Positions 4,727 through 20,695 of a stretch of 20,878 nucleotides of DNA are shown here, piece by piece. The notes under the pieces were generated by a model. The model searched no databases and was not told the origin of the DNA. It saw only the letters and a list, made by a program, of their open reading frames with translations. The translations under genes were made by a program, and so were the position numbers. Each line of letters begins with the position of its first letter. Position 1 is the stretch's first letter. Source of the stretch: a virus; the IMG/VR virus record IMGVR_UViG_3300035703_000454, positions 1 to 20,878 of that record; one strand, given 5' to 3'.

Positions 4727-4975
4727 TTACCAGTCGGGATATTCCCAGACCATCGTATTATATGTTTTTTTGTTGGTTTTAATAACTCTACTTATTGTAC
4801 ATTCTTTACATTCATAAGAAAAGGATGATGCTACCGGTCCTCTATCCTTTCTTGTTCTATAAAATCCATCAATTAAATTTTTATTTTCTCCACAAACTCT
4901 ACATTTTCTATCGGTAAGAAGTAAATGCCCCAAATTTAATTGTTTATCCAAATCTATCATGTCAAATAATCCCAC
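4727..4975 (-). CDS. Small CxxC zinc-ribbon-like cyanophage protein (82 aa)
   Basis: Two Cys pairs, CRVC and CKEC about 32 residues apart, with a basic loop between (GFYRTRKDRGPVASSF), suggest a zinc ribbon. I recall similar small proteins (MGLFD..., LNLGHLLLTD, YECKECT) lying between gp17 and gp18 in T4-like cyanophages. Start choice: GTG at 4975 gives MGLFDMIDL, which matches the remembered N-terminus. An ATG at 4960 sits in the classic ATGA overlap with the gp17 stop and would give 77 residues. The GTG has GGAG 13 bases upstream, which is rather far. A nucleic-acid-binding helper of packaging or late expression is possible from context; function is unknown. Confidence 0.82.
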   Translation of the reverse strand: MGLFDMIDLDKQLNLGHLLLTDRKCRVCGENKNLIDGFYRTRKDRGPVASSFSYECKECTISRVIKTNKKTYNTMVWEYPDW

Positions 4976-6603
4976 ATATATGAGCGATCTCCATACTCAT
5001 CAACAAACCATCTATCTCCTTCTTGATCTACAAAACTATTGGTATCTAATCCATCGGAAACAAACCCAAAAGGTGCCATATCTTGTTCTATCTGATTTTT
5101 CTGCTCTTCATAAAGTCTTTTTCTAACATCCTGATCAGTAAGTTCTTTAAAATAGTCCTGAGCGACCAACCAAGCATATATTACAAGACACATGGCAAGA
5201 TCATCATTACATCCTTCTTCAGCCTCAAATGAATTATGTTTTTGGATAAACGTTGTCAGTTCACTAATGATATCATAGTCATTTAAAAATAATTTATTTT
5301 CCTCTATCATTGTTTTTAAATTGAGACATCCAACTTTCTTTACCGTTTTGGACATCTTGACTCCAAGTTGAGTTTTCTTTCCAGAAAATCCTTGACCTAC
5401 AATTTGACCTGCTCTACCTCTCATTGAACACATGAGTAAATTATTGTATTCTAAATCATATTGTATAATACTTGCGACTTGATCCCCAACATCATTAACC
5501 TCACATAAAATATAAGAGTTGTTATATGCAGTCGCTGCTTCATGAATGATACTTGGAAATAGCATGGGTTTAATTTCATTATTTCTATATTTTGCAACTA
5601 CCTTATGAGGAAACTGAGTTATATCAACTATGACAAATGCAGAATAATCGTTTCCCACGCCTCTAGCAACGTCTACAGTGACTAGGTAATCGTGATTCTC
5701 TTGGGGATCTTCATAAACATCTAAACCAGCACTGCGTGTCTTTGGGTGGTCGTATACAAATGATCTTAATTTTGACGGTGCAATAAGAGTATCGACGGAT
5801 CCTAAAAATTCACATTCAAACTCAACTTTGAATTGTTGTTCTGAAGTGTTTGCAATTGTCTGAGCCTTCCACTCTTCATCTCTTCCAGGAACTTCACTCC
5901 AATGAACATCTGTGAATACATATTCATTCTTACCTTTTTCCGCATCGTGCCACATTCGGTAGAAATGATTCATACCATGTGGCGTAGAAACAATTATAAC
6001 CTTGGTTTGTTTACCTGAAGTAATTGTGGGATATACGGATGCAAAGAATGAATCTGCAATGTGATTTGGAACGAATGCAAATTCGTCCAAGAACAGAATG
6101 TTAAATGACATTCCTCGAACAGCAGAGGCAGAAGTTGATGCTGCCAAAATCTTAGAACCATTTTCAAGTTCTAGAGAACCTTTATTCCAAGAGATAATTC
6201 CTTGTTGCATCCACTTTGGTAAATTTTCATAAGCAGTCTGCAATCTATCCAAAAGTTCTCTTGCAGTTGCTGCCTTGTTCGCTAGAATGCCTATATTTAC
6301 ATTGTCATTGAATACTGCATAATGTAACAAAAAAGATACCACAGTAGTAGATTTGCCAGTCTGTCGTGGCATCTTACAGATATTAAATCTGTGATTGTGG
6401 AAATTATTAATTAACTTCTCTTGGAAATGATATGGTTTAAAAGTTTGAAGTCCATGATCTAGAGTTACAATTTTTACGTAATTATTCGCAAAATAAACAG
6501 GATCATCTTTACACCTAACAAATTCAAGAATTTGCTCTTGAGTAAATTCAATAGGAGTATTTGCTTTTTTTAAAAGCGGATTACCAAGATAAACATCACT
6601 CAT
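4957..6603 (-). CDS. 17: Terminase large subunit gp17 (packaging ATPase-nuclease)
   Basis: The protein has 548 residues. The ATPase domain shows a Walker A loop at about 78-86 (MPRQTGKST), Walker B at 169-174 (ILFLDE; D173, E174) and the coupling motif STPHG at 206-210. The RNase H-like nuclease domain shows the acidic triad: VTVDVARG (D311), CEVND (E368) and CNDDLAM (D467/D468). It powers DNA translocation into the prohead through the gp20 portal and cuts the concatemer at headful. The start is the first Met, with GAGG seven bases upstream and a 15-base gap from the mosaic gene. The end overlaps the following CxxC gene. All catalytic residues are present, so it should be active. Confidence 0.97.
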   Translation of the reverse strand: MSDVYLGNPLLKKANTPIEFTQEQILEFVRCKDDPVYFANNYVKIVTLDHGLQTFKPYHFQEKLINNFHNHRFNICKMPRQTGKSTTVVSFLLHYAVFNDNVNIGILANKAATARELLDRLQTAYENLPKWMQQGIISWNKGSLELENGSKILAASTSASAVRGMSFNILFLDEFAFVPNHIADSFFASVYPTITSGKQTKVIIVSTPHGMNHFYRMWHDAEKGKNEYVFTDVHWSEVPGRDEEWKAQTIANTSEQQFKVEFECEFLGSVDTLIAPSKLRSFVYDHPKTRSAGLDVYEDPQENHDYLVTVDVARGVGNDYSAFVIVDITQFPHKVVAKYRNNEIKPMLFPSIIHEAATAYNNSYILCEVNDVGDQVASIIQYDLEYNNLLMCSMRGRAGQIVGQGFSGKKTQLGVKMSKTVKKVGCLNLKTMIEENKLFLNDYDIISELTTFIQKHNSFEAEEGCNDDLAMCLVIYAWLVAQDYFKELTDQDVRKRLYEEQKNQIEQDMAPFGFVSDGLDTNSFVDQEGDRWFVDEYGDRSYMWDYLT

Positions 6604-6618
6604 AATAAACCTCTAATA

Positions 6619-8355
6619 TTAATTACAATTCCAACGTCTAAGTGCTTTATTAATGTTGCTATCAGGATCTCTTGCAGTTTTTGCTGAAGTCAATTTTGAT
6701 TTCATACCTTTCATACGTCGGCAAAATGAAGCACGACGTTTTGCTCTTTTACCTTCTGGATTTTTTTCAGTAACTGCTGTTTGAAGTTTTGAGCCTGGAT
6801 TTTCTCTACGATATGCATCAACAGCTTTTTGACTTAACCCTGCAGTTTTATCTTGTCGATTTACTTTTTGCCAATCTTCATCAAATTCAACTTGTTCACC
6901 ATAAGGTTTTACATATTTTTTTGATGGTCCAGGAAATCCAAAAGATCCACCTTGAGGACCAAAGGTTTGAATTAATGGTTGTCCTGGTTGAATTTCTGAT
7001 ATTGAATGGGAAACAACTATTGATCCGGGATAAACTTTTTGAAGTTCATCATTAATTTCTTTTTTTGATGGAGTTTTAATCTGCGGAAAGAACATCTTAA
7101 GGGAATAATATTTTCCTCTCCAGGAAAGAGTGACTCCGATAACATTTCCAGTTTGTGCTTGAAGTCTAGTTGCTTCCTCTACTTGAGACTTAAATCCTTT
7201 GATGGGTTCTGGTTCAATCAGATCAACAACTTCTGCAAAAGTGTTTCCATTCGCATCCTCAATTGACACATCTTCCGCTTTTACGCAGCGATTATATTTT
7301 TTACCAAAAAGTGTTTGAGTCCCTTTCTTCTTATATCCAGGCCAACACTTCATTTCATCCATAATTTTATCAACTAATTTTTGCTCCTCCATTTCTCCAC
7401 TTGCAACATAATCTGCGGCAGTATCAATATAATCTGCTGCTTTAGTAATTTTTGATTGAACCCATGCTTCCAAGTCACCTTCACCCTTACCAACTTTCAT
7501 TTGAAGTCTTTTTACTGCATCTGCAATGGTTTTAAGTTCAGATCTTGCCATAGAATATTCGTGGTCTTTGATGGAAACTTTATCCCATGCCTTTCCACCA
7601 TAAGAACACTCTGACCTAGTTTCTCTTTTATCACATAATGGACAATATCTTTGTTCTTCTACCGCTTCGGATTTAGTTCCCCAATTATCGGCACCAACCT
7701 TACGACATTTTACCAAAGCACCAGATGCATATGCACTTGGCCAAACACTATAACGAGACTTTACTTTATGATAACAAGCGTCTTTTTTACCACTACCTTT
7801 ACCTGGTTTATCTTTTGCTTCTTGTAGTTCCATTTCTTCTTTCATTTTCTTTCTGGGTGAATCTGTAGAAACATATGTTGGTTTTGCAGCTCCTGTTTTC
7901 TGTTGCTGTCCAGGATCTGCTGCTTTCTTTCTTCTTGATGCCGAAAGTCTTTCTGCGGGAGTCATGCTTGCTCTTTTTGCCGAAGAGACGCACTTAGGTG
8001 TTCCCTCTCCAGGTTCGTCACTTGCACATGTTCCACCAGTAACAACATTTACCCAACCAGATTTACCATCTTTTGATTTTGATTTACCAAACCAATCACG
8101 AAGACCTTCTTCTTTGATATCTTTAAACTTTTTATGATGCTTTTTGGCATCTGCTTCCATTTTTTTCAAGCGAGTATAATAATCTGGAATTTCATCTAAA
8201 TGTTGGAGAGCAATCTCACGAGCAAGTTTGTGATCTTTTGTATGTTCATGTTCAATAGGTTCACCCATATCAAGTTGCTTTTGTATGAAAGAAACATCCA
8301 TACGATGTTTCTTTGCAATTTGCTCAACTGTTTTGTGTGACTTGATCTTGGGCAT
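6619..8355 (-). CDS. Mosaic multi-module phage protein between gp16 and gp17 (578 aa)
   Basis: Modules in order: residues about 5-72 DUF5661-like (EHEHTKDHKLAREIALQHLD then EIPDYYTRL); about 85-165 GWVNVVTGGTCASDEPGEGT with CVSSAKRASMTPAERLSASR; about 186-226 KKDACYHKVKSRYSVWPSAY followed by GALVKCRKVGADNWG; about 236-320 a CPLC pair plus helices (EYSMARSELKTIADAVKRL); about 334-360 KCWPGYKKKGTQTLFGKKYN; about 385-465 an alpha/beta segment (YYSLKMFFPQIKTPS); about 504-578 GLSQKAVDAYRRENPGSKLQ, then RRASFCRRMKGMKSKLTS and a final RRWNC. I recognise several as small modules found alone or in other combinations in marine phages. It is Lys- and Cys-rich and lacks enzyme motifs I can name. LQEA at 177-180 fits a gp21 protease site. 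T4 has no gene here, and no function is assigned. Confidence 0.85.
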   Translation of the reverse strand: MPKIKSHKTVEQIAKKHRMDVSFIQKQLDMGEPIEHEHTKDHKLAREIALQHLDEIPDYYTRLKKMEADAKKHHKKFKDIKEEGLRDWFGKSKSKDGKSGWVNVVTGGTCASDEPGEGTPKCVSSAKRASMTPAERLSASRRKKAADPGQQQKTGAAKPTYVSTDSPRKKMKEEMELQEAKDKPGKGSGKKDACYHKVKSRYSVWPSAYASGALVKCRKVGADNWGTKSEAVEEQRYCPLCDKRETRSECSYGGKAWDKVSIKDHEYSMARSELKTIADAVKRLQMKVGKGEGDLEAWVQSKITKAADYIDTAADYVASGEMEEQKLVDKIMDEMKCWPGYKKKGTQTLFGKKYNRCVKAEDVSIEDANGNTFAEVVDLIEPEPIKGFKSQVEEATRLQAQTGNVIGVTLSWRGKYYSLKMFFPQIKTPSKKEINDELQKVYPGSIVVSHSISEIQPGQPLIQTFGPQGGSFGFPGPSKKYVKPYGEQVEFDEDWQKVNRQDKTAGLSQKAVDAYRRENPGSKLQTAVTEKNPEGKRAKRRASFCRRMKGMKSKLTSAKTARDPDSNINKALRRWNCN

Positions 8356-8510
8356 TATTCAACAGGTTTCGATTTAGTCTGCTCACCTTTTGCTCTTTTT
8401 CTTCTCGCTGCACAATGAGCGCGTTGAGAGAATCCTTTTGGACTTGAGCAATCAATACTCTTTTTATATTTATTAGACCAATCTTCTTGAAATTGTTTAA
8501 ATGTTTTCAT
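8355..8510 (-). CDS. Small basic protein with DUF5872-like motif and CTS-like leader (51 aa)
   Basis: This short frame starts MKTFKQFQED and carries IDCSSPKGFSQRAHCAARRK at residues 19-38. The CSxPKGFSQxAHCA pattern with paired Cys is one I know from a small module (DUF5872-type) in many marine phage proteins. The protein is strongly basic: I count 14 Lys/Arg against 5 Asp/Glu. The first residues resemble the capsid-targeting leaders of T4 internal head proteins (MKTYQEFIAEA). The start lies within the end of gp16 (14-base overlap), and its TAA overlaps the ATG of the next gene by one base (TAATG), which supports real translation. A packaged internal protein is a plausible inference; a role beside the terminase is another. 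Confidence 0.78.
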   Translation of the reverse strand: MKTFKQFQEDWSNKYKKSIDCSSPKGFSQRAHCAARRKRAKGEQTKSKPVE

Positions 8511-8931
8511 TTTGGGCCTGTTGTTTTAAAAGTTTTGCTAATTCTGCAGTAGAACCAACAAACAAAGCATTGTTTACTGTAGTTGGACCTTTACTAACTT
8601 TCTCTTCCTCAATATCTTTTAATTTCTTTTGAAGATCCATTAATTTGTCAGTGGCATCTGCAACATTTTTAATTAGTTGTCCCGCAACTTCGTAAGCACG
8701 AGGCATCTCACTTTCTTGTGCTAGTTCAAGAATACCATTAATTGCTTCTTGACCTTTTTCTATAAGAGAATATAAATTTCCCCTAGTATAATCATAATCT
8801 TTTTTAATATCATCAGCGGTTGGTAATATAGTTTCCATTTTGCCAATTTCAATTTTATTTTCAGCAGGAACTATTTCACCATCAACGTTGAAAGCTTCAT
8901 TTAATCCGTCAAATTTTTTTGTCATTTTCAT
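8497..8931 (-). CDS. 16: Terminase small subunit gp16
   Basis: At 144 residues it is slightly shorter than T4 gp16 (about 164). It has the helical composition and central segment expected of the family: ILPTADDIKKDYDYTRGNLY, then GQEAINGILELAQES and AYEVAGQLIKNVADATDKLM, followed by a charged helix (LQKKLKDIEEEK). It lies directly after gp15 and upstream of gp17, as in T4. gp16 forms a ring that stimulates the gp17 ATPase and helps select DNA for packaging. Start choice: the ATG at 8931 (MKMTKKFDGL) leaves five bases after the gp15 stop and has a weak GAG nearby. An ATG at 8925 or a TTG at 8940 would change length by two or three residues. Its 3' end overlaps the next small gene by 14 bases. 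Confidence 0.88.
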   Translation of the reverse strand: MKMTKKFDGLNEAFNVDGEIVPAENKIEIGKMETILPTADDIKKDYDYTRGNLYSLIEKGQEAINGILELAQESEMPRAYEVAGQLIKNVADATDKLMDLQKKLKDIEEEKVSKGPTTVNNALFVGSTAELAKLLKQQAQNENI

Positions 8932-8936
8932 AATAC

Positions 8937-9938
8937 TCAAGAGACTGTTCCACTAAATCCAAAATCATCGCCATCTTCTATCAACGCATTATCTTGAGCG
9001 GTAATGGACTTAACTGGAGCTCCAGATAAGTGAGGTGTGGCAGTAGTTCCATCTTTACCCCTTTCAACAGTAAGAACATTGCCGGATACAAGTTTTACAT
9101 AAACTTCTTCGCCTTCAATATCCAAGTAGGTATTTGTGTTGATCGAACTTGCACTATTAACTACAATGAGCGTATCTTCTGATGTAATATCTTCCGCTAA
9201 ATTTGTTAGAATAGTTCCAGTGTAATTTTTAATAGCCCTTGGTTCGGAAGAGTAAACAATTTCTCTTGTTGGAGTGTTTGTAGTATCTCCAACAACATAT
9301 CCGATAGTAGTTTTTTTGATAATATCTTTTGATGCTGAAGAAACTGGGCCGAACAAATATGTTTTTACAGTAAATCTTAGTGTATAAATTAATACCCTTC
9401 TCGTTGTGAAATTACCTTCATAATCATCTTGCATCGTAATGTTTTCGAGAATTACTGGAACATCTCTTTTTTCATTAATTATGTCTGCCAGTTCAACACT
9501 TATAGTATAAGCTGGTTGAAAATATGGTAAAATTTGTTCAACAATTTGCAAAGCATCATCATTTATCTTTGACATAATACTAAGTTCAAATTGCATATTA
9601 TAAGGAACCGGAAGATATGTTTTTTTAGTTTCTGTTCCGTCAGTTGCAGACTTAGAAGTAAATGTCTGTGTAGTTGTTGACTTTCTAGATGGATCATAAG
9701 TCAAACCAGTAAATTCAAATGACATTCTTGGTAATGTTATTTGAACAGGTTTATTTAAATCTGGGGACTGTTCTAGTCTTGCGAGAAACTTTTGAGTTGG
9801 TCCATATGCAAGAGGAACTTTAATTACGTTAGTAACCACCCCATTATTGTTTGCGTGTTTAATGCTTATTTCATTAAACAAAGACCCAAAAGCAATTACA
9901 GTTCTTCTTAAAATTTCGTGATAAAAGTATTCAAACAT
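8937..9938 (-). CDS. 15: Tail sheath stabilizer / tail completion protein gp15
   Basis: The N-terminus MFEYFYHEILRRTVIAFGSL with later VPLAYGPTQKFLARL and LPRMSFEFTGLTYDPSRK is the standard gp15 signature. In T4, gp15 caps the tail above the last sheath and tube rings and connects it to the gp13/gp14 neck. The core is about residues 1-235. T4 gp15 has about 272 residues; this one has 333. Residues about 240-313 form an added module (EDITSEDTLIVV, LDIEGEEVY, LTVERGKDGTTATPH). It resembles a small beta module common in phage structural proteins and one in the giant protein of this window. The start is the only plausible Met. Upstream lie a late-promoter-like sequence and a perfect stem-loop whose 3' foot abuts the AGG that may serve as ribosome-binding sequence. 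The stop is five bases before the chosen gp16 start. Confidence 0.93.
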   Translation of the reverse strand: MFEYFYHEILRRTVIAFGSLFNEISIKHANNNGVVTNVIKVPLAYGPTQKFLARLEQSPDLNKPVQITLPRMSFEFTGLTYDPSRKSTTTQTFTSKSATDGTETKKTYLPVPYNMQFELSIMSKINDDALQIVEQILPYFQPAYTISVELADIINEKRDVPVILENITMQDDYEGNFTTRRVLIYTLRFTVKTYLFGPVSSASKDIIKKTTIGYVVGDTTNTPTREIVYSSEPRAIKNYTGTILTNLAEDITSEDTLIVVNSASSINTNTYLDIEGEEVYVKLVSGNVLTVERGKDGTTATPHLSGAPVKSITAQDNALIEDGDDFGFSGTVS

Positions 9939-9981: not shown

Positions 9982-9987
9982 TTTATG
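9980..9987 (-). promoter_or_regulatory. Candidate T4-like late promoter core before gp15 (CATAAATA)
   Basis: The minus strand reads CATAAATA, one base from the T4 late consensus TATAAATA, 41 bases upstream of the gp15 ATG. Its TAA is the stop codon of gp14. Late promoters of T4-like phages need only this -10-type element, read by the gp55 sigma factor with the gp33/gp45 co-activators. AT-rich DNA gives chance matches, but the position exactly between genes supports it. Confidence 0.55.
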
Positions 9988-11389
9988 GAATTCCAAAGGG
10001 GTTCCCCTCACTAAAATCGATAATTTTATCAGCCTCAGTTTCAATTTCATCATTATTGGCAAATCCATCTTTAATTATAAGCGTATCTATTAACCTCAAT
10101 TGATACGAAGCACTTGATGCTGTTCCGACAAGATTTTCTCCAACAACAAATTCACCATTTATATTTGATACTTCAAGAACATTGGTTGTTGCGTTCCAGG
10201 ATCTTACTCTTGCTGTTACTCCACTCTGAGATCCTGTAACTACCTCATTAAATATAAATGTTCCTATTCCTCCAACATTTGGAGATCCTATAGTTATCGT
10301 TGGAGCGACTGTATATCCAAGGCCGGAATTTGTTATTCTAATCTGAGATATTGTACCTGCAGCGGAAACAACAGCAGTCGCAGCAGCTGAAACTGAAGAA
10401 ATTCCTGTAAAAATAATTGATGGGGGAGTTGCGTATCCTGAACCAGAATTTGTAACAGTAACTATTCCTACCACACCATTTCCTATTGATGCAATTCCTG
10501 TTGCACCATTTCCACCACCTCCAATAAACCTCACTCCAGGAGATATAGTGTATCCGTAACCGGCATTAATTATCTCTACACTTTGAACAGATTGTGCAGA
10601 AGGATTGGTATTGTCATTGCATACAACTATTCCACCAATCATTTTTGCAATAGCAGATGCAGTTCTACCTCCCATAGGTGCAGATGATATTCCTACAGTA
10701 GGTGTGCTAGTGTATCCTCCACCACGATTTGTTACTATTATTGATGTAATACCACCATTTACAATTTGAACAATTGCCGTTGCGGTTACACCAACGCCAA
10801 CCATGGTGAGTTTTTGTACAACTCCAATTGGTTTACTATCTTCACCAATACTTCCACTGACATTATCATCAATTTCTTCAATGCTTGTATCAATAATTTC
10901 ATCCTCATATCTAAAGAGTTCGCACCTTAACTCATAAGTGTATAACCCCTGGAGTTGATAAAAAGGTTTTTCGTGCTCAACGTATTTAATTTCAAATAAA
11001 CGATCCCCCAACGGAAAATAAATTAAATCTCCTTCTTTGGGTCTTGACGATAATTTTACGTTTGCCTGATCCTTTATGAGAGGTGAAATATAATTTTTAA
11101 ATCTCTCTCTGGAGATTATCAAAGTAATCTCATTTAAAGCCTGAATACCAAATTTTGACAGAATAGTGGGATTATCACCATATCCATCGTAAGAATCAAT
11201 ATACGCTTCTATCGGATATGCGTTGTCAAACTTTGATTCTATAACTTCCTTTATAACTGTTTTTTCTGTAATATATTTTCTTGGTAGATAATGTACGTCA
11301 ATTCCATACATTCTAAGTTGTTCATTTATTAGGTCTTGGATTAAACCTTGCTCTGTTTTAGAACCTTGGAGAAAAAAAGGATTAAGCAT
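9983..11389 (-). CDS. 14: Neck protein gp14 with repeat-rich C-terminal extension
   Basis: The first 170 or so residues are the conserved neck protein: LNPFFLQGSKTEQGLIQDLI, GIDVHYLPRKYI, and YQLQGLYTYELRCELFRYED near 145-163. T4 gp14 has about 256 residues; this one has 468. The extra length begins near residue 190. It holds four copies of a Gly-rich beta repeat around residues 215-230, 268-283, 308-322 and 347-361 (pattern I-x-[VI]-TN-x-G-x-GYT-x-x-P), then a different module at about 383-430 (GVTARVRSWNATTNVLEV, GEFVVGENLVG). The last 30 residues (EIETEADKIIDFSEGNPFGI) look like the native gp14 C-terminus, so the repeats appear to be inserted before it. The protein forms the head-tail neck with gp13. 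The stop TAA is part of the candidate late promoter of gp15. Confidence 0.9.
   Translation of the reverse strand: MLNPFFLQGSKTEQGLIQDLINEQLRMYGIDVHYLPRKYITEKTVIKEVIESKFDNAYPIEAYIDSYDGYGDNPTILSKFGIQALNEITLIISRERFKNYISPLIKDQANVKLSSRPKEGDLIYFPLGDRLFEIKYVEHEKPFYQLQGLYTYELRCELFRYEDEIIDTSIEEIDDNVSGSIGEDSKPIGVVQKLTMVGVGVTATAIVQIVNGGITSIIVTNRGGGYTSTPTVGISSAPMGGRTASAIAKMIGGIVVCNDNTNPSAQSVQSVEIINAGYGYTISPGVRFIGGGGNGATGIASIGNGVVGIVTVTNSGSGYATPPSIIFTGISSVSAAATAVVSAAGTISQIRITNSGLGYTVAPTITIGSPNVGGIGTFIFNEVVTGSQSGVTARVRSWNATTNVLEVSNINGEFVVGENLVGTASSASYQLRLIDTLIIKDGFANNDEIETEADKIIDFSEGNPFGIP
10295..10762 (-). repeat. Four Gly-Tyr beta repeats in gp14
   Basis: The encoded segments SIIVTNRGGGYTSTPTVGIS, SVEIINAGYGYTISPGVRF, IVTVTNSGSGYATPPSIIF and QIRITNSGLGYTVAPTITI share a strand-turn-strand pattern with invariant Gly-Tyr and a downstream Pro. 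Their spacing is 39 to 54 residues. Copies are diverged at the nucleotide level, unlike the 18-bp array, so this is an old protein repeat. Such repeats probably form stacked beta hairpins decorating the neck. Confidence 0.85.
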
Positions 11390-12622: not shown

Positions 12623-15600
12623 TTATGCGAGAGCAATAGTTCTAAGATCTCTAAGTCTAGGTGGATATGCTTGATTTGTTGAAGTTCCAACAATCTTGAC
12701 ACTAAAGTATCTAAATGTCGGCAAGTTGTCAATTGTAAACTCAAGATCTGTAAATTGTGCTTGATCACTAATCAATGCCAAAGTATCAGATCTTGGTACA
12801 AACTTGTCTGAAGATCCATCACTATTTGAAATATCAATAACTTGACCAGATTGAAGAAGATTTGAATATCCTGGGAAAGGATAATAAATTAATTCTTCGG
12901 ATGAATCTTTTGCAATTGCATAGAATGCTCTTACATCATTATAAACATTCAAGTATGCGGAAACATATACTTTAATTGATGTTGCAGGAGATTCAAGAGA
13001 AATTGGGTTTATTGCATAAACAAATGCATTTGGATCATCAATTATAGTTGAAGTTCTGTTGTCAGTTATGTAATTTGTGATTGGTTGATTGACTCTATTA
13101 GATGTAAGAATCATTGCAACACGATGCAAGTCAACGACTGGAGATAATGCAGAATTTGTACTATTTAAGTTCAATGCCATTGTGAATGATCTATTTCCAG
13201 GTAAAGTTGTCAGTGTATTTGTCTCATTAACTCTGGAGGCAATCAATCTTGGAGAACTTAAATAATTTACTCCCTTCAGAGTAATATTTTCAAATCCTTT
13301 ATCAACAAAAGAAATTTCAGAGCCATTAACACTTGTTCCACTTACTGTTCTAATAGAGGCACTAATGTTTGTTCCTACAGGAGTTATATTTTCAACTATT
13401 GGGGTTATGACTTCATATTGAATATTTTCCGTTGACTTAATCTTATCTCCACCAGTAGATTTAGTTTCATTTAGATAGAGTTTTGGTAAACTTGTACCAA
13501 CAGATCTATCAACTCCATTTGTTGACATATTCAGTTTAATATTATAATGGTCAAGACCAATAGAATCAGACACAGTTGCATCTGAGAGATCATGAACTTT
13601 GTTAATTCTTCTCAGAGAAACTCCACCTAATTCATACTTGTAAACAAAATCTCTAGTTGTATAATTAAACGCAAGAGTTGAATCAACTGATCTTGTAATT
13701 CCAGTTAGTGAATTTGTGGAAACACCGGTGTAAGAAATAATTTCTTGACCTATTTTTGCATAACCTGGATTTGTTGTTCCAACCCCAACATTTTCAAATG
13801 TCCCAAAGTTTGTGGAATCTGCAACCAGTATAGTTGAAGTTGATGTTGATGCATAATCTGCAATTAGTCTTGTTGGTGCAATATCGCTGGTGACATTAGA
13901 TATCTGAACTCTATTGAGAGATGAGTGCATACCATGATTCTTTTGGTTCACTTTAATGTGTAAACCGTCAGTAACGATAGTTGGAGCCGTTGGAATCAAC
14001 ACATTGCCACCAGTGCTTGCATTCAGAGTAGTTGTTATTCCTAGGTTGTTTGTATACCTCACAGTTCCGCCAGCACCGACTAAGAAATCTCCTTGAACAT
14101 TATCAAGAACAAGTTCATTGATTCCAGTTATATTAGTAACTGAAAGTCTAAGATTTCTCCCAAGAGATGTAATTCCAATCTGAGTTGCTGTTAGTACATC
14201 ACCAACAGAGTATCCAGTTCCGCCATTAGAAATTGTAGCAGCAATGGCAACTCCATTACTGATAGTAATATTTGCTGTTGCATTTCTTCCAGATCCAGTT
14301 ACATTTGTTAGGGAAACATTGGAATACACAGTAGAACCAGATGATGGCGTATAACCTATTCCTGAGTTGGTTATAGTTAAGTTTCCTGTTGCAGTGCCTG
14401 CAGAACCAACATAAATTCCTCTAGCATTTGAACCAAATTGGGTTACTGTATTACCTAAAGTAAGTCCAGAATCTTGTACAGTAGATCCTAATCCAACTCT
14501 AATCCTCTTAGATGAAAGTTCTAAAGTATCTTTGAGTAAGAATGGTGTCTGGTCACTATCAATATCAAGAACAGGATTGTAGAAATTAACACTTCCACTA
14601 TTTGCAAATATTGCACGATTTAATGTAAACTTAATATCTTCATATTGACTTGCATTCCAAGTTGATCCATTTTGAGACTTGAACAAAGACCCAAGAAGTG
14701 GTTGTGTTGTAACAACAACTTGTCTAGATTCTACTTGATTTGCAGTGGAAATATCTACTTCACCTAGTCTTGAAATCCAAACTGTATATTCATTACTAGA
14801 TGAAAGAACAACAAGAGAATGATACTGCTGCCCAGTGAGATAAACGGGAGATTCAAACGTTACTCTTGTCGCAAGACTACCATCTTCAGAAACATTAACG
14901 TCTTTTGCATCAATTACAACTTCACCAAAAGGATATATTTGTTCGGTTGGAAGTCCAAGTTGCATTGGACGCAACTGAACAATGACGGGTAGTGTTGCAT
15001 CTTTTGATCTAAAGAAAAGATCAACAGAAGTAACAAAAATTCCAGATTCTGGTTCGATAAAGAATGATTGTGCAAGAGGATCTAATACACAAGAATTTTT
15101 ACCATAACCAAAATCTCTTTGACCAATAATTTTAATACTTTCTATCGCTCCTCTAATTCCAGAAACTCTTCCATCTACAGATGCACTTAACCAATCATTA
15201 ATTTCTTGTTGTGATGGACCTTCTTTTCTACCAAGGAATTCTTGATATGCTGCAATAATTAAAGCTGAATTTGCTTCTAATGCCAATTGTGGTACAGATG
15301 ATGATGAAGATCCCTGAACCGCTTGACTTGTTACTGTTACTCCTGGGGTTGGTGAAGTTTGTGTAATTTTAAATTGGTCTTGTTGTTTTGCAATGACACC
15401 TTTTCCAAGTACTGTTGCTTCTACACCATTGGCAATATCTGTTTGAATTTGACTAACAGCATCCAAAGTACTTTTTCCTTGAGCCCTAAGTTCTTCAAAC
15501 CTAGTCTTTGCCCAATAACGTTCTCCACTAGTCTCTGGTCTTCTTCCAAGATAGTCAACATAGGCTGACTGTACCGATTTCAATACAAAAGGATCAAGAT

Positions 15601-18600
15601 CTGATGAAGTTTCAGCTACTGTTGATTGAGTTGTTGCAGTAACGGGAACAAAAATATTTTCACCCGGTGTCGTCGTTTGAGTTGGTGTCGTCGTTTGAGT
15701 TGGTGTCGTCGTTTGAGTTGGTGTCGTCGTTTGAGTTGGTGTCGTCGTTTGAGTTGGTGTTGGAGTAAGTGGGTCTATTGGAGGTGGAGTTGGTGGATTT
15801 TGAGTTCTAACTAGAGTTGTTCCAACAACGGAAGTATTCGTTGCGCTTGTTGAATTAGATTCTTGTTGCAAGGTAGATTCAAATCTAATACTTCTAACAG
15901 AAAGGATATTTTCTTGTACTTTATTCAGTGAACCTTTAGATTCAAATCTTTCTTCAGCACTAGTGGAAACAAATCCTGGAATTTGTGTATTTGTATTACT
16001 ACTAGTGAGTCTAAAAAGTTTAGTTCCAGATTCAAATCTGGGATTGTTGTCAATGTTGGGATTTGGAATATAGATACATCCAATTACAGTTCCCACACTA
16101 TCAGTAACTAATCTAATATTTGATATAGTTGCTTGAGCCCCACTTGTTTGCCCTTTTAGTTTCATTCCAACTTGAATGTAACCAAAGAATTCATTTTGAG
16201 ACTTTTCAGACAAACTAAATGTATCAACGTTTATTAAGGTTGAAGTTGAAGAATATGAACTCGGTATGGTTCTATTTCTATCATATGGATTGATTGTATA
16301 TACATCAGTTGGGTTATTATATGGACCGTACTTGTGGTTTTGTTGAGAAACTCTGAATGTTATAGATGGTCCATTTTCAACTTCTCCACTTACGGTTTCT
16401 CCAACCTGGAAAGATCCAGAAACCATGTTTATTTCTATCAACTTTGGAATAATATATTGATTAATATCAATACCATCAAAGAAACCATAAACTCTTGTGA
16501 TTGGTTTTAGTCTCTTAGAAGTGAACTCAATGTTTCTAGATCTTACAAAAGGAATTAATTGTGTACTTACTACAGAATCGCCAAGACTAACATTATCAAA
16601 TGCTTCTTTAAATACTTGTCTTGTTCCAGTTCTGGTTTGTGTTCCTGTTTTTGTAGTTGTTTGATAATCTGTTCTAATTAAATTTACCCCTTGCCAAGAC
16701 TCTTCAGAATAATTTTTAGTATTCTCTCCAGTCCAAGTTGTCTCCCATGAACCCCATATTACTGGACCATATCCAGTTTGAGGATCAAATCCTCCTGCTG
16801 TTAATTGGGCAACAGTTTCGTTATAATTTCCATCAACAGACGTAGTTTTTGCAGAAAGCCTTGTAGTATCTACCCAAACATCAGATGATGGGTTAAGTTC
16901 AATTGTTCCATAGTAGTAGTTAACTAAGTATGGAGTTACATTTTCAACTCTTGTTGCAAATGGTTGAGATATATGTTCGACTTCAGCATATTGGAGAGTC
17001 AAAACCCTACCAGTTCTTCTTACACCAATACCATCCAAATCTGTAACAAATCTTTGGTCAATTTGTGGACTTGCAGCTGTTCCAATTCCAATCAAAGCAT
17101 TTGATCCAAGAACTAAATCAAGTTCTGTGGTGTAGTGTGAAGGTCTTAACTCAGAGTTTTTAACATCAATACTATTTTTAACAATTGTCTTTTTAATTTG
17201 TGATGTTGTTGATGAGAAATCGTCAACAAAGAAACCTGATTTAAATCTATTCAGTCCATCAGCATCTCTAATATAAAGATTGGACGTATCAGATTCTAAA
17301 AGAGAAAGTGAAGTATAGAATTCTAAATTAGTAATTCTAGTCTCAAGATTACTAATATCAGACATTCTATATCTCTTGTGTTGTTTCAAACTAACACTTA
17401 CTTCATCAATATCACATAGATAAGCTGGTAAGGTTAGAGTTGCAACCTCTAAGGTGTTTTCAATAATATTTGGAGGCAATGGAGTTTCTTCTGGTACTCC
17501 ATTTACTAATTGGAATACACCATCTTTACTCAAGAAAATTTTATCAATTCTTGGCAAATAGAAAGAATAGTCTAGAAGGATTGACTCATCGGATGCAAGA
17601 ACATTTGATGCAGAGTTGCCCTGTGAAGTAAAATCTCTAGCTTGGAATTCGAATGGAGAAAGAGTTGATGAAGTAAATTCTGAAACTCTAGGTCTAATAT
17701 CAATTATGTCCGATGTTCTGATCGAGTTAATGAATGGAAGATCACAGTAATCAAATTGTTCATATGAATTTACTGTTGTAATATCTCCAGTATCGGAAGA
17801 TGAAAAATCAGCATACTCAAATACAATTTTTAACCTTCTTGTTGGTTCTTTAGAAGATGGTTTTCTGATTATTCTAGAATAATCATAAATTGTATCTCGT
17901 TGACCATTATCAAATATGAAGTTTGATGTGATGTTATTATCGCCAATATTATTATCAGTTACTATTGCAGTTATGCCGGATTCTTTAAAAGTAATTACTT
18001 CACCAATCGTTAAATTATTTGAATTTAATGTGGTAAAATTAATTGTTAAATCATCAACTTTTCCAACGTAGAGTCCAACAAATTTATTATCTTGTCCAAC
18101 AAATTCCTCTCCAACTAAAAGATCACCTGTTTTATTTGTTGGTCCACTCAGAGATGTTAAACTTAAAGTTGGTAATGTTGCATCAGAAGTTCCACTTGAC
18201 TCAAAAATTCCATGAATTTTAAATACATCAGGTACAAGTAAACATATTTCCTCATCTTGAACTCTAGTTCCGTATCCTGATCCAAAAGTCAAACCATCAT
18301 TCAAAGTTGATGCACCAATACCAGATTGTGAATATTTTGATTTGGAAACCGTTATAGTTTTTACTCTGTTTTTATTTTTTACTTTTGACTTTATATTTGT
18401 TTTTCTTAATGTAGCAATTAATTTTGCAGAACTATTAGAACCAAGGCCATTAATTGTTAATGTTGTTCCACCATTAGTGAAAACAAACTTGTCTGAACTT
18501 AGAGGTTCTGTTGATCCATCAGATCTAATTAAAACATATCTTTCCTCATCAAATGGTAAGAAAGTTTCATCTGATGAACCAGATGTTATTGCTCCTGTTG

Positions 18601-20695
18601 AATTTGAAACAATATTTACATCAAACTGTTTTTTAATTGGTAAGTTTGATGATGTTAAATCTACAGAAGCAATATTTCTCTTTGGTAATGCTGTATATAA
18701 AGTATTATCTACAGAGGACTGGAAATTGGAGGTTAATACTCTAAAATCGCTAGGATTAATTGTAGTTGATGGAAGACCACCATCACAAACTCCAGAGACC
18801 GTTGTTACAGCAGAAATTACAATCGAGTTTTGTGATACTGACACTACTTTTGAGAAAGTTGGAATTGTCAATCCTGGATTTGAATATGCAACAATATTTC
18901 CAACAGTTGCAACCCCAACGAAATATTTGGATAAGTTTGCACTTGTTACTGTACTAACACCACCACTAGATGCACTAATATTAACAAGTCCAATTTCACT
19001 CAAAGTGGATTGAACTACATCTGCATTAAAAGTTGAGGCAGTTCCAACAATTCCATATATAGATTTTACATCACCAGTTGAATATGAAGTTACTGCAGTA
19101 GATACTCTGTTATTTTCTATACCATCAAATATAAAACTTTCTCCAACAGCAAAAAATCCTTTTGTGTTATATGCTGTGATAATTCCTGAGTTAGATGCCG
19201 AGTATCTTAAGAATCCTACAGCACCACTAGACTTTCCTTTAATGTAAGTTGGTGTTGATAATGTGATTGGTCTATTTAATGTTATTTCCGTATATGTTTG
19301 AATATCATAGAATGATGCGTCCCAGACATTTGTATTTGGATTAGTAGAATCATAAGATCCGGATTCTAATGCAAAATCGTAAACTCTAGCAACACCAATT
19401 TCTTTGCCCGCTGCCGATGTTGTTGTTACACCAATTCTATCACTTCTTAGACTTACAGTATATGATGTTGAAATTCCAATAATTGGAGAACCACTGACTC
19501 TATTCAATGAATAGGTTGGACCAGTTAAATAATTTACACTTTGATTCTCAAGATTTTTTGTAGTTCTTGGTTTTGGAAAATCTAAGTATACTGGACTAAT
19601 TGTTTCTACTTCATACCCTTGAACATAAGCTTTTGTCGGACTTACAATATAAGTTCCCAAATCATCATTAGGAACATTATTATTATAAGTTGTTTGATTT
19701 TCAAAAAATACTCCTTTATTACCCTTTAAATCATTTAAAGTTTCCTTTACCTGTATTCCTGCAGGGATTACATAGTAGTCTCCAGATTCATCATAAGTTC
19801 TTCTTGCAAATTCTTTCGATAATTCGTTATATTGTGTATCTTTTCTTACTGACGTGATTGTGCCATCACGAACAATCATCAACTCAATAAAGTTTTCATA
19901 CTTAACATTGTCTACAGGTTTTTTAGTGAGAAATGCACTAATCTTTAATCTATCAGCTCCAGGTGCAGTATAATTTGAGAATCCTTTGGCATTATCATTT
20001 AAGGAATCGTCAATATCAGAATTTATAATTTCTTCAAATACTTCTAAACCAATTCTATAAGTTGGAAGGTTATTATAAGGTTCAAGAATTATTGTTTGTT
20101 CTGGCAACTCAATAAAATACCCACGAATATAATAAACACCAGCGGATAAAGTTGCTGCAGATGCTATAGATAATGCATTTTCTGGTAAAATACTTGCAAT
20201 ACTTTCACCCGGTTGAATTGTTATTGTATTATTTGATAAACCTTCCTCAATAATTAAGGATTCTCCATCGAAAAATTTCTCATTATCGTTTGAAGATTCT
20301 AAGTAATTTACATAGAGAGTATAAGGTTCTCCGGGAAAAGCAGATCTATTCAGATATGCTTTTATTTTTGCCCTTACCCCAGAAACTGAACCAATAACTA
20401 CCTTATTGAGTAAGTCCGAAAGATAATTGGATACTGAAATTCCAGAAAATGACCTTTCAATTAATACTGAATTAAATGTATTTGCATAATGAATACCACC
20501 ACCAGTTACAGAATCTCCTTCTTTGAAAACGTGATTTCCAAACTTTTCAATCTGATTTTGAAGAATAGATTGAATAGTAGTTAATTCTCTTGCTTGGACA
20601 GGATATCCTGGTTTGAATAAAACCTTATGATAATTTTCTGTTGAGTCAAAGTCGTCAAAGTATGGTGAGACGTTGAGGTTAGTTTCCTGGGGCAT
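12623..20695 (-). CDS. Giant virion structural protein, DUF4815-type with DUF4214-like insert (2690 aa)
   Basis: The N-terminus (PYFDDFD, KVLFKPGYPVQARELTT, QNQIEKFGNHVFKEG) and the later block YLPRIDKIFLSKDG...RYRMSDISNLETRITNLEFY (about residues 1045-1135) match the DUF4815 family of cyanophage virion proteins. Residues about 1643-1679 are a TQTTTP repeat linker. Residues about 1704-1756 (YVDYLGRRPETSGERYW) and about 1808-1860 (AYQEFLGR...WLSA) look like two DUF4214 modules. Residues about 1870-1977 (DPLAQSFFIEPESGIF to VWISRLGE) are a conserved phage beta domain. Residues about 2103-2169 hold GxGYT-type repeats, and about 2273-2346 an IGQEIISY...LTGITRS module. I see no signal peptide or membrane segment. 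Start: ATG with AAGGA only three bases upstream. Its place between a baseplate-type gene and the neck cluster suggests a baseplate or fibre role. Being a virion protein is well supported; its exact location in the tail is inference. Confidence 0.85.
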   Translation of the reverse strand: MPQETNLNVSPYFDDFDSTENYHKVLFKPGYPVQARELTTIQSILQNQIEKFGNHVFKEGDSVTGGGIHYANTFNSVLIERSFSGISVSNYLSDLLNKVVIGSVSGVRAKIKAYLNRSAFPGEPYTLYVNYLESSNDNEKFFDGESLIIEEGLSNNTITIQPGESIASILPENALSIASAATLSAGVYYIRGYFIELPEQTIILEPYNNLPTYRIGLEVFEEIINSDIDDSLNDNAKGFSNYTAPGADRLKISAFLTKKPVDNVKYENFIELMIVRDGTITSVRKDTQYNELSKEFARRTYDESGDYYVIPAGIQVKETLNDLKGNKGVFFENQTTYNNNVPNDDLGTYIVSPTKAYVQGYEVETISPVYLDFPKPRTTKNLENQSVNYLTGPTYSLNRVSGSPIIGISTSYTVSLRSDRIGVTTTSAAGKEIGVARVYDFALESGSYDSTNPNTNVWDASFYDIQTYTEITLNRPITLSTPTYIKGKSSGAVGFLRYSASNSGIITAYNTKGFFAVGESFIFDGIENNRVSTAVTSYSTGDVKSIYGIVGTASTFNADVVQSTLSEIGLVNISASSGGVSTVTSANLSKYFVGVATVGNIVAYSNPGLTIPTFSKVVSVSQNSIVISAVTTVSGVCDGGLPSTTINPSDFRVLTSNFQSSVDNTLYTALPKRNIASVDLTSSNLPIKKQFDVNIVSNSTGAITSGSSDETFLPFDEERYVLIRSDGSTEPLSSDKFVFTNGGTTLTINGLGSNSSAKLIATLRKTNIKSKVKNKNRVKTITVSKSKYSQSGIGASTLNDGLTFGSGYGTRVQDEEICLLVPDVFKIHGIFESSGTSDATLPTLSLTSLSGPTNKTGDLLVGEEFVGQDNKFVGLYVGKVDDLTINFTTLNSNNLTIGEVITFKESGITAIVTDNNIGDNNITSNFIFDNGQRDTIYDYSRIIRKPSSKEPTRRLKIVFEYADFSSSDTGDITTVNSYEQFDYCDLPFINSIRTSDIIDIRPRVSEFTSSTLSPFEFQARDFTSQGNSASNVLASDESILLDYSFYLPRIDKIFLSKDGVFQLVNGVPEETPLPPNIIENTLEVATLTLPAYLCDIDEVSVSLKQHKRYRMSDISNLETRITNLEFYTSLSLLESDTSNLYIRDADGLNRFKSGFFVDDFSSTTSQIKKTIVKNSIDVKNSELRPSHYTTELDLVLGSNALIGIGTAASPQIDQRFVTDLDGIGVRRTGRVLTLQYAEVEHISQPFATRVENVTPYLVNYYYGTIELNPSSDVWVDTTRLSAKTTSVDGNYNETVAQLTAGGFDPQTGYGPVIWGSWETTWTGENTKNYSEESWQGVNLIRTDYQTTTKTGTQTRTGTRQVFKEAFDNVSLGDSVVSTQLIPFVRSRNIEFTSKRLKPITRVYGFFDGIDINQYIIPKLIEINMVSGSFQVGETVSGEVENGPSITFRVSQQNHKYGPYNNPTDVYTINPYDRNRTIPSSYSSTSTLINVDTFSLSEKSQNEFFGYIQVGMKLKGQTSGAQATISNIRLVTDSVGTVIGCIYIPNPNIDNNPRFESGTKLFRLTSSNTNTQIPGFVSTSAEERFESKGSLNKVQENILSVRSIRFESTLQQESNSTSATNTSVVGTTLVRTQNPPTPPPIDPLTPTPTQTTTPTQTTTPTQTTTPTQTTTPTQTTTPGENIFVPVTATTQSTVAETSSDLDPFVLKSVQSAYVDYLGRRPETSGERYWAKTRFEELRAQGKSTLDAVSQIQTDIANGVEATVLGKGVIAKQQDQFKITQTSPTPGVTVTSQAVQGSSSSSVPQLALEANSALIIAAYQEFLGRKEGPSQQEINDWLSASVDGRVSGIRGAIESIKIIGQRDFGYGKNSCVLDPLAQSFFIEPESGIFVTSVDLFFRSKDATLPVIVQLRPMQLGLPTEQIYPFGEVVIDAKDVNVSEDGSLATRVTFESPVYLTGQQYHSLVVLSSSNEYTVWISRLGEVDISTANQVESRQVVVTTQPLLGSLFKSQNGSTWNASQYEDIKFTLNRAIFANSGSVNFYNPVLDIDSDQTPFLLKDTLELSSKRIRVGLGSTVQDSGLTLGNTVTQFGSNARGIYVGSAGTATGNLTITNSGIGYTPSSGSTVYSNVSLTNVTGSGRNATANITISNGVAIAATISNGGTGYSVGDVLTATQIGITSLGRNLRLSVTNITGINELVLDNVQGDFLVGAGGTVRYTNNLGITTTLNASTGGNVLIPTAPTIVTDGLHIKVNQKNHGMHSSLNRVQISNVTSDIAPTRLIADYASTSTSTILVADSTNFGTFENVGVGTTNPGYAKIGQEIISYTGVSTNSLTGITRSVDSTLAFNYTTRDFVYKYELGGVSLRRINKVHDLSDATVSDSIGLDHYNIKLNMSTNGVDRSVGTSLPKLYLNETKSTGGDKIKSTENIQYEVITPIVENITPVGTNISASIRTVSGTSVNGSEISFVDKGFENITLKGVNYLSSPRLIASRVNETNTLTTLPGNRSFTMALNLNSTNSALSPVVDLHRVAMILTSNRVNQPITNYITDNRTSTIIDDPNAFVYAINPISLESPATSIKVYVSAYLNVYNDVRAFYAIAKDSSEELIYYPFPGYSNLLQSGQVIDISNSDGSSDKFVPRSDTLALISDQAQFTDLEFTIDNLPTFRYFSVKIVGTSTNQAYPPRLRDLRTIALA
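15116..15586 (-). other. Two DUF4214-like modules inside the giant virion protein
   Basis: The first copy reads SAYVDYLGRRPETSGERYWA, fitting the family pattern of Tyr, then LGR, Pro, Gly and a YW pair. The second (AAYQEFLGRKEGPSQQEINDW) keeps Tyr, LGR and Trp but is more diverged. A Thr/Gly/Ser-rich stretch lies between them. DUF4214 is otherwise known mainly from large bacterial surface and secreted proteins, including cyanobacterial ones. I infer an added surface-exposed or glycan-interacting region; no binding function can be read from sequence. Confidence 0.65.
15666..15755 (-). repeat. Five identical 18-bp tandem repeats encoding TQTTTP
   Basis: Five perfect copies of an 18-base unit (GGTGTCGTCGTTTGAGTT on the plus strand) run head to tail in frame inside the giant virion gene. 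A degenerate partial copy follows from 15756. Each unit encodes six residues, giving a Thr/Gln/Pro linker just before the first DUF4214-like module. The unit is half G+C, visibly richer than the surrounding AT-rich coding sequence. Exact nucleotide identity between copies, including third codon positions, indicates recent expansion by slippage or unequal recombination. Confidence 0.97.

Follow-up and report, generated by a model that had tools for sequence, protein, structure and literature searches.

The window, a stretch of 20,878 nucleotides from a viral genome, contains a conserved 51-residue mini-gene between gp16 and a large modular gene, and this mini-gene, which is under coding selection, is the main new finding of our analysis. 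The large gene encodes a protein, here termed P, that belongs at full length to the T4-GC119 family, known but uncharacterised; its place is the hot spot between gp16 and gp17 in T4-like cyanophages (Kyanoviridae). The start of the mini-gene, MKTFKQF, matches the tag used for head loading in T4, which suggests by analogy that the site is a source of cargo travelling within the virion. The gene-level hot spot and the T4-GC119 family are already published; the turnover of modules within a single gene and the mini-gene are additions to them.

The window covers late genes of a T4-like cyanophage, which read on the minus strand in the order gp13, gp14, gp15, gp16, P, gp17, a small endonuclease VII-like gene, gp18, gp19, and gp20. 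The terminase genes and the genes between them are as follows.

4957..6603, minus strand: gp17, terminase large subunit, TerL (Terminase_6N, 6e-25; Terminase_6C, 4.2e-14)
6619..8355, minus strand: multi-module protein P, 578 residues plus stop, architecture A-B-C-D-E-F-G
8355..8510, minus strand: mini-gene, 51 residues, with a T4-like capsid-targeting start and module K
8497..8940, minus strand: gp16, terminase small subunit, TerS (phrog_445, 5.6e-56; Pfam DNA_Packaging, 1e-8)

A 578-residue multi-module gene between the terminase subunits had been predicted from the sequence, and we confirmed it as an open reading frame at 6619-8355 with seven blocks (A to G), lying on the minus strand, which the original prediction left unstated; the 51-residue gene separating gp16 from P had been missed. 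PHROG profiles assigned P to the T4-GC119/phrog_727-3477 family (phrog_727, 1.1e-103; phrog_3477, 3e-87), and P has both traits of this DUF6321 cyanophage family, a C-terminal DUF6321 and a gene located in the gp16-gp17 interval. The T4-GC119 label is borne by the P homologues of S-SM2 and S-SM1 in the same interval. The cyanophage hypothetical proteins of T4-GC119, phrog_727, and phrog_3477 thus share family, site, and C-terminal DUF6321 with P, whereas the main text of the earlier T4-GC119 work presents one hypothetical protein and does not describe modules. The gp16-gp17 interval is among the hot spots reported by Sullivan et al. (2010), who give credit for it to Millard et al. (2009) and associate T4-GC119 with a mobile cassette for carbon metabolism (PMC3037559). 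The place is the same as ours, but the turnover described there is of whole genes, whereas here it also occurs inside one gene and is accompanied by the mini-gene.

Elsewhere in the window, an 82-residue endonuclease VII-like gene (4727-4975; phrog_4723, 2.4e-34) overlaps the end of gp17, and the small gene at the corresponding position of S-SM2 is T4-GC282. The gp14 homologue (9983-11389) has a long C-terminal extension (approximately residues 244-376) resembling baseplate or virion structural repeat regions, and a 2690-residue structural open reading frame (12623-20695) contains a tandem TPTQTT-type repeat at 15626-15814.

The mini-gene (8510..8355, minus strand; MKTFKQFQEDWSNKYKKSIDCSSPKGFSQRAHCAARRKRAKGEQTKSKPVE) shares 14 nt with the end of gp16, stop codon included, and one base with the P start (TAATG), and the 141 nt separating gp16 from P are part of it rather than intergenic. 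We set aside a reading of this gap, which contains AATAAATA, as a promoter, since its bases are coding sequence of the conserved mini-gene. We found the mini-gene in at least 82 loci in 55 distinct versions, with changes by codon position of 132/180/584, a bias toward the third position, and an approximate omega (nonsynonymous changes relative to the no-selection expectation) of ~0.14. Neither PHROGs nor Pfam holds a model for it, and in phage Bellamy it is annotated as gp122, "hypothetical," directly before the P homologue gp123. The mini-gene is a conserved gene of the kind that the usual 60-residue length limits leave out.

The body of the mini-gene constitutes a module, K, that is fused into P at varying positions in eight other phages. 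Among 141 loci, K was present as a separate gene in 51, fused into P in 8, in both forms in none, and in neither form in 82; this exclusivity of separate and fused forms gave p = 0.024 with relatedness ignored. In S-SM2, the upstream gene runs on into the mini-gene as a fusion, in which the mini-gene start (RKTFEEFRESW) survives as a linker.

Blocks A to G of P were cut from an alignment of 62 close relatives; their borders were set in the present analysis, and only A and G are curated Pfam families. They are listed below in the order of the protein, together with a proposed protease site.

8116..8355, minus strand (residues 1-80): module A, DUF5661 (PF18905, 1.8e-14, residues 11-67, 54.3 bits against a cut-off of 27)
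7846..8109, minus strand (residues 83-170): module B, GWVNV...KCVSS...PTYVSTD, from the 62-sequence alignment, with two conserved cysteines
7816..7827, minus strand (residues 177-180): LQEA, the proposed gp21 site, between modules B and C
7657..7788, minus strand (residues 190-233): module C, CYHKVKSRYSVWPSAYASGALVKCRKVGA, from the 62-sequence alignment
7390..7656, minus strand (residues 234-322): module D, CPLC and a helical region, from the 62-sequence alignment
7270..7380, minus strand (residues 326-362): module E, CWPGYKKKG...CVK, from the 62-sequence alignment
6892..7269, minus strand (residues 363-488): module F, a beta-beta-alpha-beta core, elsewhere a standalone gene of ~105 residues
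6622..6876, minus strand (residues 494-578): module G, DUF6321 (PF19846, 3.7e-13, residues 501-575, 50.4 bits against a cut-off of 28.5)

Many of the modules had been described as lysine-rich with cysteine pairs. This held for the cysteines, all 11 of which are kept in 61-62 of the 62 close relatives (B, 110/122; C, 194/217; D, a triplet at 238/241/250; E, 337/357; G, 545/577), and for the basic modules A, B, C, E, and G (pI 9.3-10.8), but not for D (pI 5.8) or F (pI 6.8), the latter without cysteines. A pI above 8.5 was found for 99% of 202 P family members, compared with 1.5% of 470 other open reading frames in the same loci. From this charge alone, the DNA-binding units proposed earlier would be plausible. 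P has no recognised enzymatic domain, a PADLOC search of 75 relatives for defence systems gave no match, and a literature search for DUF6321 or DUF5661 found no paper. A standalone homologue of module B in a pelagiphage matched DUF5872 weakly, under the Pfam cut-off, and an inserted DUF192 (PF02643) was seen in 26 DUF6321 proteins out of a diverse set of 75.

Parts of P occur in 508 phage records, nearly all of them from cyanophages, but in only one record was at least 80% of P covered at one place by tblastn. We scanned the open reading frames of fetched loci with profiles of A to G and of four further modules found at variable positions (H, I, J, and K); the loci were mostly fetched by likeness to P or gp17, and some of those counted overlap on a single contig. 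Among 235 distinct complete DUF6321-bearing proteins, there were 62 architectures, bearing out both the predicted recurrence of modules in shuffled order and the suggestion of a shuffling hot spot at the gp16/gp17 junction, which at the level of genes had been reported before (PMC3037559). The outcome that would have counted against the original prediction, one unchanged architecture in every relative of a protein neither packaged nor cleaved, is not what we observed. Order was variable (ratios of 95:17 for B and D and 85:28 for C and D), and 12 architectures already occur in phages whose gp17 shares at least 90% identity with that of the window, some of the loci overlapping. The subgroup nearest to the window typically has its form, in which A-B-C-D-E-F-G includes DUF5661 and K is a mini-gene of its own. 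Against this turnover, two features were nearly constant: DUF6321 was at the extreme C terminus in 234 of the 235 proteins, and a DUF6321 protein lay between the terminase genes in 120 of the 121 loci that contain both of them (25 of 26 among loci fetched by gp17 and not by P). Fragment shuffling inside one phage protein likewise appears in the general survey of domain mosaicism by Smug et al. (2023; PMC10684548); here, by comparison, the C-terminal module is fixed and the upstream mini-modules turn over at one locus.

Single modules also occur as their own genes, with A in Caulobacter phage Cr30 and adjoining G and B mini-genes in pelagiphage HTVC027P, and standalone DUF6321 genes are found in podoviruses and pelagiphages away from any packaging region. 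In the unrelated marine Flavobacterium phage immuto (L175:1901-7248), A, C-B, and D-D genes lie within ~5 kb, and this neighbourhood suggests that the modules travel or work together. A scan of genome contigs gave six matches (L167-L172), in which modules resembling those of phages lie on contigs assigned to MAGs of bacteria or archaea. One of them, L167, in a MAG titled Euryarchaeota TMED129, encodes a full-length relative of the H-B-C-E-F-G type and is probably a misbinned cyanophage contig.

The start of the mini-gene is one residue off that of T4 ipI (MKTFKEF) and near that of ipII and ipIII (MKTYQEF; T4 record). In the T4 capsid-targeting sequence, residues 4 and 7 govern entry of a protein into the head and residues 8 and 10 control the later removal of the sequence; an Asp at residue 10 keeps targeting and blocks removal (PMC9026906). 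The mini-gene of the window matches T4 at targeting residues 4 and 7 but not at processing residues 8 and 10 (Q8 and D10), with FQE/D replacing L/I-x-E, and its residue 10 is this Asp. P itself starts with MPKIKSHKTVEQ, in which we found no N-terminal capsid-targeting motif (aromatic residues at 4 and 7, L/I-x-E processing). The pattern MK[ST][FY]..F was found in 1 of 150 open reading frames of the window and in 3 of ~5,170 from three cyanophages, which were two standalone F genes and a virion NMNAT. The standalone F genes start MKSFKQFISES, and S-SZBM1_192, a standalone DUF6321 protein, starts MKTFKQYITEA.

We compared such starts with proteins detected in virions by mass spectrometry (MS), with the tag pattern taken from T4 and relatedness ignored in all p values. 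In S-CREM2, all four genes matching a broader pattern (SAM hydrolase, gp13, gp136, and cytidylyltransferase) were MS detected (p = 0.003). When the strict tag was set against the MS virion sets of S-CREM2, S-SCSM1, and S-SZBM1 pooled, the counts were 5 of 8 versus 118 of 680 (p = 0.006), an association driven by S-CREM2 and not significant in S-SCSM1 alone or S-SZBM1 alone. Because S-CREM2 was inspected before the pooled test was fixed, the association of the tag with virion proteins in cyanophages is suggestive only. A literature search found "cyanophage" and "capsid targeting sequence" together only in a T4 review.

T4-like starts were also seen on packaged-looking enzymes, including the SAM hydrolase of S-CREM2 (MKDFDSFLEE) and cytidylyltransferase/NMNAT proteins of S-CREM2, S-SCSM1, and S-SZBM1 (MKNFSSFLTEA, MKSFLQFLKEA, and (M)RFRQFIIEA), and after short extensions on a Cas9-like protein (..LRFASFMAEAA) and a kinase (..KRFDAFLTEEE). 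Another hot-spot protein, the 707-residue S-SZBM1_194 (26253-28376), has a weak DUF3008 start, an S-AdoMet lyase domain (PF23780, residues 567-675), and an internal YREFIAE/G shortly before that domain. The lyase domain would fit an anti-restriction cargo like T4 IPI.

The original prediction that the protein is packaged is borne out in part, and indirectly, by virion MS of homologues in S-SCSM1 and S-CREM2, but not in S-SZBM1 and apparently not in S-SM1. The S-SCSM1 record, in which labels follow the MS set, names the P homologue ORF29 (B-F-C-E-D-F-G) "virion protein," and the S-SCSM1 paper reports 45 virion proteins by MS; ORF30 was not detected in that virion MS. In S-CREM2, TerS and TerL are separated by gp136 and gp137 alone, and both are in the virion MS table. 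By profile and Pfam, gp137 is F-G (4 peptides, 4.1% coverage), and gp136 starts MQTFSMFFSE (8 peptides); the S-CREM2 authors were unable to exclude co-purification for packaged-looking enzymes. Support from virions for the P family is partial because the standalone F (_191), the DUF6321 protein (_192), and _194 of S-SZBM1 are absent from its virion MS table and the S-SM1 homologue is annotated as hypothetical though that genome has published proteomics. In the nearest relatives, a standalone F lies between portal gp20 and protease gp21, an interval that we take to be the place of T4 core genes 67/68. In all 45 loci, F stands directly before a gene annotated "virion structural protein." With this phrog_1645 gene, standalone F forms a two-gene cassette located after P or between gp20 and gp21 (L086:14595-16219 and 44 other loci).

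We propose, with a confidence evenly poised between acceptance and rejection, that the gp16-gp17 hot spot is a locus like those of the T4 internal proteins (IPs), whose basic cargo modules would be interchanged between tagged mini-genes and fusions ending in DUF6321. In this proposal, small basic proteins encoded at the hot spot would be loaded into the prohead and perhaps ejected together with the DNA, with DNA, host polymerase, or host defences as targets, and their supply would be diversified as modules move between standalone mini-genes with a T4-type targeting start and the large fusions. Both the P family and the mini-protein would then lie inside the head, and MKTFKQF would be a working targeting sequence in cyanophages. 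We infer that the untagged P may enter through modules whose standalone forms carry the tag, possibly bound to a tagged partner, for which the mini-protein is a candidate because fusions of K with P exist; alternatively, P may enter with the core, through F or G. P may have a DNA-binding or anti-host activity, its charge fitting contact with DNA.

T4 IPI, IPII, and IPIII are likewise small and basic proteins of variable loci, and the mini-gene start matches their targeting residues 4 and 7. Their bodies show no seen similarity to ours, however, P is untagged, the mini-gene lacks processing residues 8 and 10, and the genome position differs. Polyvalent proteins of phages and conjugative elements are multi-domain and thought to be delivered with DNA, but in P we found no enzymatic domain. 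In favour of an IP-like locus are the virion detection of homologues, the basic charge of the family, the rarity of the tag and its presence on virion proteins and on standalone F, the interchange of K, and the site of F between gp20 and gp21. Several points stand against it: P lacks an N-terminal tag, the MS evidence for gp137 is thin, S-SZBM1 _191, _192, and _194 and S-SCSM1 ORF30 went undetected, the S-SM1 homologue is annotated as hypothetical, the link of the tag to virion proteins is driven by S-CREM2, the mini-gene does not have the T4 processing residues, DUF6321 also stands alone away from packaging genes, and the exclusivity of K reaches only p = 0.024.

A possible but doubtful alternative is that P binds nucleic acid inside the cell late in infection, for example as an aid in DNA processing or packaging near the terminase, and only co-purifies with virions; shuffling would tune its binding, and its site beside the terminase would reflect late co-transcription or a packaging function. 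The strong positive charge, the Cys-pair mini-modules, the lack of a targeting sequence on P, the low MS coverage in S-CREM2, and the standalone DUF6321 genes of phages without a gp16-gp17 P locus are consistent with such a role, as is the location of P at most 40 nt from gp17 in 140 of 193 loci (some of which overlap). However, the S-CREM2 virion contains the neighbouring gp136, whose start is targeting-like, and P is not tightly tied to the terminase because S-SRM01 keeps P with gp17 several genes away and AMG cassettes often intervene between P and gp17.

We find it unlikely that P is mainly the product of an endonuclease-associated recombination hot spot, with little selected function at a site that tolerates insertion. 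The metabolic cassettes and endonuclease genes of this hot spot (PMC3037559) and the number of architectures would fit such an origin, but the near-invariant cysteines, the C-terminal position of DUF6321, its retention between the terminase genes, and the low omega of the mini-gene all argue for selection.

Very improbable is an injected host-takeover factor in which module F would act against host RNA polymerase, as with T4 Alt. The full-length AlphaFold model of P (pLDDT 55, pTM 0.20) resembled beads on a string and was left out of fold searches; an F-G model reached pLDDT 70, with the F core at 85-92. The F core weakly resembled the small RNA-polymerase-binding proteins YkzG and T7 Gp2 (Foldseek E 0.45-0.9, none significant) and a predicted structure annotated as a phage RNA polymerase inhibitor (E 0.05), but no structural or sequence match was significant: Foldseek of the F-G model against the PDB gave a best E of 0.19, phmmer of P against PDB sequences gave no match at E<=1, and beta-beta-alpha-beta mini-folds are common. 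Viral matches of the F-G model at E <= 0.001 were mostly named DUF6321 or S-SCSM1 "Virion protein," and the others were unnamed.

Finally, we reject the proposal, the least probable of all, that gp21, which in T4 cuts after L/I-x-E (PMC9026906), cleaves P as a polyprotein into separate module units, because the one LQE/A site between B and C is not conserved ([IL]xE at this position in 31 of 62 relatives, followed by A/G/S in 4 of 62, with several lacking the segment) and the [IL]xE sites in P are at chance level (5 versus 3.8 expected from shuffled sequence; p = 0.33).

Returning to the IP-like locus, we hold more tentatively, at somewhat under an even chance, that the hot spot is an arsenal of internal proteins in which tagged mini-genes and fusions travel in the head and the same tag carries NMNAT/cytidylyltransferase, SAM hydrolase, a Cas9-like nuclease, and a kinase. 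If so, it would explain why NMNAT, SAM hydrolase, Cas9-like nuclease, and kinase recur in cyanophage virion proteomes. If our reading of the tag is true, an MKTF/Y..F start rule would forecast the proteins that marine T4-like cyanophages bring into cells, would settle the published doubt between cargo and contamination for virion NMNAT, SAM hydrolase, and kinases, and would at once yield a set of candidate proteins for anti-defence and takeover. The tag aside, the locus is a well-sampled case in which modules pass between standalone mini-genes and a fused protein of which one end stays constant.
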